Positions 9,661-35,653 of a DNA stretch of 55,103 nucleotides are shown here, one piece after another. The stretch is from an uncultured Thiotrichales bacterium (lineage in GTDB: Bacteria; Pseudomonadota; Gammaproteobacteria; CAIRSR01), in contig CAIJYR010000052.1 in NCBI GenBank assembly GCA_903824965.1, positions 1 to 55,103 of the forward strand, in the 5' to 3' direction. The position numbers and the translations under genes were made by a program. Position 1 is the stretch's first letter. Every line of letters starts with the position of its first letter. The notes beneath the pieces are model-generated. The model saw only the letters and a program-made list of their open reading frames with translations, did no database searches and had not been told where the DNA came from.

Positions 9661-10200
9661 TCACTGGTGAGAATCTTTTGTGGGCATCTTTGGGTCTGCC
9701 TTGGGGTCTGCCTTGGGTTCAGCCTTGCCGAGCACCTTGGAAAGCTTGAGTTTGACATGCGATAATTCTATATTCGTTGCCTTCAGGCGACCCGCAATAA
9801 CCCTTGCAATGTTGTGAAAAAGAGTAGACAACAAGTTTGGATGTATCTGCTTGAGATGTAATCCTTCAAAATACAGAGCGAGGCAATCACCGACCGCCTT
9901 GATCCTGGCAGAGCGGATTTTCTCATCGAACACGAGCGTCATTTCTCCGAAGCTATCTCCTGCTTCTAGCATAGCGACTTGCTGCCATGTTCCATCGATC
10001 TCTTTCTCCACGGCGGCCTTGCCGGTAACCAAGACATAAAAAGACTCTCCGTAGGCTCCCTCATCAAAAAACAACGCGCCATCTTTTATGGTAACCTTGT
10101 TGGCACAAGAGAGTAGTTGGATTAAATTCTGCTTCTGGATTCCATGAAACAGTTTTACGTTGCTCGCCACTTTGAACAGCAAACCATCTTGATTGCTCAT
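9661..10200 (-). CDS. cyclic nucleotide-binding domain protein
   Basis: 'DEGAYGESFYVLVTGKAAVEKE...MLEAGDSFGEMTLVFDEKIRSARIKA' cNMP-binding signature; no obvious HTH. Confidence 0.8.
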   Translation of the reverse strand: MSNQDGLLFKVASNVKLFHGIQKQNLIQLLSCANKVTIKDGALFFDEGAYGESFYVLVTGKAAVEKEIDGTWQQVAMLEAGDSFGEMTLVFDEKIRSARIKAVGDCLALYFEGLHLKQIHPNLLSTLFHNIARVIAGRLKATNIELSHVKLKLSKVLGKAEPKADPKADPKMPTKDSHQ

Positions 10201-10203
10201 GAA

Positions 10204-10249
10204 TGTCTCCGAGAAACCCCTCCCTTCAGGGCGTGGAGGAAAGGAGACA
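10204..10249 (-). promoter_or_regulatory. 5'UTR stem-loop enclosing a candidate Shine-Dalgarno of the cNMP-binding gene
   Basis: TGTCTCC (10204-10210) / GGAGACA (10243-10249) 7-bp outer stem with inner CCC-TTCA-GGG. On the minus strand GGAGACATTCATG places the SD in the stem. Confidence 0.5.
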
Positions 10250-10411
10250 GCTTGGCGTAACCGTCGGTGCTGTCAACCCATTCGTACTTGCGTGATACAC
10301 GCGCCTTGAAACGTGGGGTTCTTGACCTTTGTTCTACGATATGCTGCTACTATATACTGATTTTTGCCTATCGTTCAACACGTAGACGCTCGTACCCGAG
10401 GAGTGTGACCC

Positions 10412-35485: not shown

Positions 35486-35628
35486 CGTCAACCACCCCGC
35501 CTGAAGGCGGGGCTGAAGCTGTGTTGCCCCCTTGTCGAGGGAGCCACAGCGATCGATACTGACGATACTGATGAGGTGTGTGTCATTAGACCCGTAAGGG
35601 CTGACAGTCGGGAAAGACCGACACCGTC
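35486..35628 (+). ncRNA. candidate structured RNA (HEARO/IscB omega-RNA-like or IS-derived), without iscB
   Basis: Nested perfect stems: CCCCGCC/GGCGGGG (35495-35512), GCTGTG/CACAGC (35518-35550) with inner CCCT/AGGG, TGTCA/TGACA (35581-35606) enclosing CCC-GTAA-GGG (GNRA loop), GTCGG/CCGAC (35607-35622). Confidence 0.5.
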
Positions 35629-35653
35629 TATGGGTTTACTCGGAAAACAAATC

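Follow-up and report, generated by a model that had tools for sequence, protein, structure and literature searches.

A HEARO-derived element at the start codon of a propeller gene and its relatives at gene starts in an uncultured Thiotrichales bacterium

Directly in front of a beta-propeller gene of an uncultured Thiotrichales bacterium lies a stretch of DNA with several predicted stem-loops. What is this putative RNA, and why does it end exactly where the gene begins? The window, i.e., the whole stretch of DNA analyzed, comprises 55,103 nucleotides (nt). A preliminary description of its sequence had proposed an orphan HEARO/IscB omega-RNA, a transposon relic, or a cis-regulatory RNA at this site.

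Structure and identity of the element

The highly structured RNA proposed for this site was borne out: positions 35487-35653 (+) were filled by a fold with a minimum free energy (MFE) of -65 kcal/mol, compared to -50.8 +/- 4.3 kcal/mol for dinucleotide shuffles (z = -3.3), and none of 200 shuffles was as good. All stem-loops expected from the preliminary description were found (Table 1). Its borders, 35486-35653, were close, the element ending right before the propeller start; the 5' end (GTCAACC...) lies one base later. The direct repeat that it had pointed out is present as two copies of CGATACTGA, a duplication seen in the window copy only, since the siblings compared carry at most one unit. 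The GGTGT...ACACC closing pair had to be given up, because it is absent from the MFE structure. In many other copies in the genome, GGTGTG pairs with an upstream CACACC, which the window copy has lost (it has CACAGC). Matches to sR16, sR55, and SNORD15 from Rfam were far below their cut-offs and were rejected as chance. No sigma-70-type promoter was found in front of the element on the + strand.

When scored with the Rfam HEARO model (RF02033), the window copy reached 13.9 bits (E = 1.4), below the gathering cut-off of 83 bits. Used alone, this model would misleadingly have spoken against the HEARO identity: the window genome (3.22 Mb) contains 39 matches, five of them above the cut-off, and the best sibling copy reaches 113.5 bits. 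Moreover, blastn revealed homologues of the window element at more than 40 places in its own genome (E down to 1.5e-17). Its start is up to 93% identical to the element start of genome copies (5' hairpin), and its second half is 74-97% identical to the conserved 3' core over 35 to 120 nt (about 75-78% over about 110 nt). In an end-to-end alignment to a consensus written by hand from complete genome copies, the 5' end and its hairpin were followed by a gap that removes about 150-180 nt of scaffold, by the core up to 35625, and by a much-shortened tail. Homology is firm up to 35625, erosion is seen in the tail (35626-35653), and the 3' border is flush with the propeller start codon.

The 39 HEARO matches and the direct homology support the proposed orphan HEARO/omega-RNA or transposon relic, two options that amount to the same thing for this element, and settle its identity. 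The window copy shares sequence homology with accepted HEARO members, lacks a complete guide scaffold, and is followed by the propeller gene in the place of an IscB ORF. Because the scaffold is incomplete, we filed it as a relic or non-autonomous derivative and not as a functional omega-RNA. The element is a reduced, non-autonomous HEARO copy that has probably ceased to function as a guide RNA. The stated absence of an IscB ORF is true of the window; the genome, however, holds two IscB-like loci, both of them disrupted. In copy C51, which ends like the other copies, the 3' part holds an IscB ORF with a frameshift; in the other IscB locus, C247, one piece is inverted and a stop is present. A Y1 TnpA was not found in the window genome.

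Covariation, another check named at the outset, was detected in the core. Across 37 distinct copies, 93% of the cells of the two core hairpins were paired, compared to at most 53% in slid controls, and three pairs showed double changes. One of these changes is borne by the window copy, which has GTCGG/CCGAC in place of GCCGG/CCGGC. Since the copies are closely related, this evidence is modest.

Table 1. Features of the HEARO-derived elements and the propeller gene in the window
Feature	Position	Strand	Basis or remark
Whole HEARO-derived element	35487..35653	+	Alignment to genome-copy consensus; blastn to >40 genome places; weak RF02033 match from 35487
5' end hairpin CCCCGCC-TGAA-GGCGGGG	35495..35512	+	Fold; also in complete copies
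GCTGTG...CACAGC stem	35518..35550	+	Fold and consensus alignment; partners differ from those in complete copies (re-formed)
Tandem duplication of CGATACTGA (9-nt unit, two copies)	35554..35571	+	Seen only in the window copy
Core hairpin ACCC-GTAA-GGGC	35590..35601	+	Conserved in 37 distinct copies
Core hairpin GTCGG-GAAAGA-CCGAC	35607..35622	+	Double (compensatory) change compared to most copies
GGGTTTACTCGGA, probably what remains of the family 3' end GGGTTTCTCGGAGACATTG; weak GGA Shine-Dalgarno	35632..35644	+	Motif scan
Propeller gene, 389 aa	35654..36823	+	G001 and G002 orthologues begin at this residue with ATGA; weak Kelch match
Second HEARO remnant, 126 nt, GTCAAGAACCCC...GGTTTCTCGGAGACATTC	10201..10326	-	Flush with ATGA of a cyclic-nucleotide-binding gene

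Element ends and gene starts in the window genome

Complete copies of the family are about 350-395 nt long. They consist of GTCAACCACCCCCGCC...GGCGGGGG...GTTGACC, the omega-RNA scaffold, the core GCCCGTAAGGGCTGACAGCCGGGAAAGACCGGC, GACGG...CCGTCTCC, a terminal hairpin, and GGTTTCTCGGAGACATTG, which is flush with ATGA. From this full length, the copies span down to remnants with little beyond GGTTTCTCGGAGAC-N4-ATGA. Identity in 35 coreless gene-start copies was 0.86-1.0 at positions -19 to -5 and mostly 0.3-0.75 further upstream, although part of this contrast is due to ascertainment, because these copies were found through the 3' motif. When the core was used to find copies, a fuzzy search within 200 nt still recovered the 3' motif in 37 of 44; contig ends cut two of the remaining seven. 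The second remnant in the window (Table 1) adjoins a gene for a protein of 179 aa (9664-10200, - strand). In some copies (L009, L011, and L004, corresponding to G000:C110, C185, and C175, and others), the CACACC...GGTGTG hairpin is swapped for an unrelated GGGGCC-GTAA-GGCTCC, an exchange of one stem-loop module inside the omega-RNA.

The 19-nt 3' end GGGTTTCTCGGAGACATTG occurs 98 times in 3.2 Mb with up to 3 mismatches, compared to 2 occurrences of the reversed control. ATGA follows in 87 cases, and another ATG in four more. A frame of at least 100 aa is opened at this position by 72 of 97 scorable ends, compared to 23.6% of random ATGA sites in the same DNA (p = 1e-25). GGAG is located exactly 6 nt before the ATG in 70 of 71 ends; as the ends were sought by a motif containing GGAG, this fixed spacing shows the precision of the border and is not an independent enrichment. 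All of 20 downstream proteins, hand-picked for looking recognizable, matched NCBIfam models and are products of host genes, and nearly all matches began near the first residue. These proteins are RpoN, NusA, ribonuclease G, AccC, TrpS, PyrE, IscR, ribosomal protein S8, GcvH, acyl carrier protein, NuoK, CyoC, a DUF494 (Smg) protein, MetH, PtsI, thioredoxin, YbgC, PrpD, an ABC ATPase, and CysQ. The genes for NusA, S8, and acyl carrier protein are normally essential.

When the flanks of copies with both ends were joined (window genome and G003, see below), an upstream in-frame stop was present within 30 codons in 27 of 36 ORF-opening cases, compared to 134 of 566 random ORF-opening ATGA sites, as would be expected for true gene starts and not for mid-gene insertions. 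No enrichment of native Shine-Dalgarno (SD) sequences was seen in the left flanks: an SD of at least 4 nt was present at 7 of 25 gene-start copies and 3 of 10 other copies in the window genome, and at 4 of 11 and 6 of 11, respectively, in G003. We therefore do not claim that insertion split native SDs from their ATGs, although the single cases C39 and C201 look convincing in this respect.

By its position flush with the propeller ATG, the window copy belongs to this gene-start series; alone, it is just one decayed family member. Its 3' tail bears only a weak resemblance to the family end (whole-tail shuffle p about 0.1). A string like GGGTTTACTCGGA stands within 30 nt upstream of 3 of the 1706 ATGs in the window. 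A third, loose motif in the window precedes an ATG at about 7317 (-); with a frame of only 23 codons behind it, it was rejected as chance. With its eroded 3' end, in which only a weak GGA is left, a present ribosome-binding role of the window copy is plausible, and this is the least certain step of our reading.

Related genomes as a natural control

The propeller orthologues in G001, which belongs to the same genus as the window genome, and in the family-level relative G002 (71% identity) begin at the residue that matches ATG 35654, with in-frame stops just upstream, which marks 35654, and not 35477, as the true start of the gene. Conserved coding in the upstream frame (start 35477), which would have spoken against an RNA, is therefore not seen. 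The gene start in these relatives reads ATGACGCAAGC, that is, the ATGA target, and neither carries a HEARO element at the gene. At the same start codon in the window, the insertion border now reads ATGC. Conservation at the same gene across species, by which a cis-regulatory RNA would be recognized, was thus not found.

The spread of HEARO among these genomes is very uneven, with at least 47 copies each in G002 and G003 (the latter also a family-level relative) and none in G001, which lacks IscB as well. G002 and G003 harbor IscB genes of 392-469 aa together with Y1 transposases. RRXRR and HNH domains were confirmed in one IscB of G003, and contig C351 of G002 carries HEARO, IscB, and TnpA together. 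The copies in G003 are near-identical and presumably young; they end with CTCGGGGACACTG followed by ATGA, and 15 of 32 are located at ORFs of at least 100 aa. In G002, the end is CTCGCGGGCATTTG followed by GTGA, it has no SD, and 0 of 34 copies are at such ORFs, a control that is imperfectly matched because G002 differs in the target as well as in the SD. The outer stem of the end varies on both sides between genomes (GTCTCC/GGAGAC, GTCCCC/GGGGAC, and GCCCGC/GCGGGC; the first two were folded), which argues for selection on a transposon-end structure, whereas an SD is present in only two of the three versions. This pattern fits selection for translation-driving ends after insertion, or a targeting bias toward them. 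That gene starts account for a larger share of the older, eroded copies in the window genome would favor selective retention.

Contig scans beyond these genomes returned the exact end only from Burkholderiaceae and one alphaproteobacterial MAG; five of the six ends there lead into an open frame, and an Rfam HEARO match is absent. In Pararobbsia/Paraburkholderia (L262, L263, L265, L266, and L267), CCTGAAGGCCGAGGTTTCTCGGAGACACTG followed by ATGA stands alone before apparent gene starts. Read by eye, the adjoining DNA on the opposite strand of L262 and L267 resembles the start of a TnpB-type gene, and TnpB elements may share this end.

A model of leader replacement and its alternatives

We consider it highly probable that a HEARO-derived element inserted at the ATGA start of the propeller gene and supplied a ribosome-binding site, and that its remnant is now fixed as the 5' leader while the rest is decaying. 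A HEARO element consists of the transposon ends and the omega-RNA of an IscB/IS200-IS605-type transposon, and the window copy was probably moved by TnpA in trans. Its target ATGA would be the start codon of the propeller gene, placing the element where the 5' leader of the gene must be. Landing there would shift the old leader away and supply a new ribosome-binding site (GGAG 6 nt upstream of ATG), and for this reason start-codon landings would be tolerable. If the SD of the element is used for translation, the host gene would then depend on the last approximately 20 nt of the element. The guide scaffold and the pairing arms would be free to decay, resulting in the series from copies of approximately 390 nt to bare 20-nt remnants; in the window copy, the guide-RNA function would already be lost. 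The model starts from what was observed: the identity of the family, its genome-wide series, the positions and spacing of the ends, the element-free orthologues, and the broken IscB loci. The low Rfam score of the window copy counts against it, as do the weak 3' tail together with the change of ATGA to ATGC, and the lack of both left-flank SD enrichment and a Y1 TnpA in the window genome.

Alternatively, the element could have been exapted as a regulator, with the SD of complete copies (GGAGAC) pairing with the upstream GTCTCC and thereby switching translation of the host gene on or off, the window copy being a compact version. The GTCTCC arm overlaps the GACGG...CCGTC hairpin, so that switching could perhaps occur via IscB or another binder. 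The two-sided changes of the outer stem between genomes and the intact core hairpins of the window copy, one of them with a double change, would suit such a regulator. However, the stem is also present in the SD-less version of G002, where it is explained as a transposon-end structure; the GTCTCC arm is missing in 20 of 72 gene-start copies (about a quarter, one-mismatch search); the window copy lacks this arm too; and the relatives have no element at the propeller gene. We regard this explanation as unlikely. Also doubtful, on a larger scale, is a genome-wide translation module, in which dozens of host genes, including normally essential ones, would use HEARO-supplied ribosome-binding sites and be co-regulated by the SD-sequestering stem of complete copies (GTCTCC:GGAGAC, overlapping GACGG:CCGTC), possibly once under the control of IscB.

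It is very improbable that the window element is still an active orphan omega-RNA that draws its guide from the flank before 35487 and directs an IscB in trans: its family membership and the IscB genes of intact length in G002 and G003 would allow this, but the window copy has lost about 150-180 nt of scaffold and both IscB-like loci of its genome are broken. There is next to no chance that the fold is accidental or the N-terminal coding part of a 448-aa ORF, since, although the frame is open from 35477, the homology to more than 40 copies elsewhere speaks against it and the starts of the orthologues, with their upstream in-frame stops, already contradict it.

Leader replacement by a HEARO-derived element would build on known components. 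HEARO elements with ATGA/GTGA borders were reportedly described by Weinberg in 2009, and Altae-Tran in 2021 is said to have found many stand-alone, ORF-less omega-RNA loci in Ktedonobacter racemifer, a likeness to the many ORF-less loci in the window genome. The Ktedonobacter loci are not known to be linked to start codons. With HEARO RNA (RF02033) and IscB omega-RNA, the window element shares the GTCAAC 5' end with its hairpin, the GTAA and GAAAGA core hairpins, and sequence homology, and the family in its genome shares ATGA at the 3' border with HEARO RNA; unlike HEARO RNA, the window copy is without most of the scaffold and without an ORF, scores below the Rfam cut-off, and stands exactly at a host start codon. 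In titles and abstracts of the open literature, we found no report of HEARO ends located systematically at start codons with a supplied SD. In Borrelia, orphan IS605 stem-loops lie at the 3' ends of lipoprotein genes (PMC2775950). There, too, IS200/IS605-type end structures stand beside host genes with no transposase, but at gene 3' ends, whereas the ends described here lie at start codons and bring a ribosome-binding site. The ATGA adjoining the insertion fits the NTGA target-adjacent motif measured for IsrB (DtIsrB) (PMC9581776), which counts for the model; in contrast to the IsrB/IscB OMEGA nucleases, a guide function of the window copy is unlikely, and the motif doubles as a start codon.

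With its target ATGA read as ATG-A, the element appears to use the start codon itself as its landing site. A transposon that enters a gene usually damages it; with a correctly spaced ribosome-binding site at the element end, landing before an essential gene would be survivable. If true, the model would explain how about a hundred ends are tolerated in one genome and why the remnants shrink toward the translation signal. The genes for NusA, ribosomal protein S8, acyl carrier protein, and others would then represent a natural experiment in leader replacement, and the OMEGA target-adjacent motif would be connected to gene starts by a testable link.
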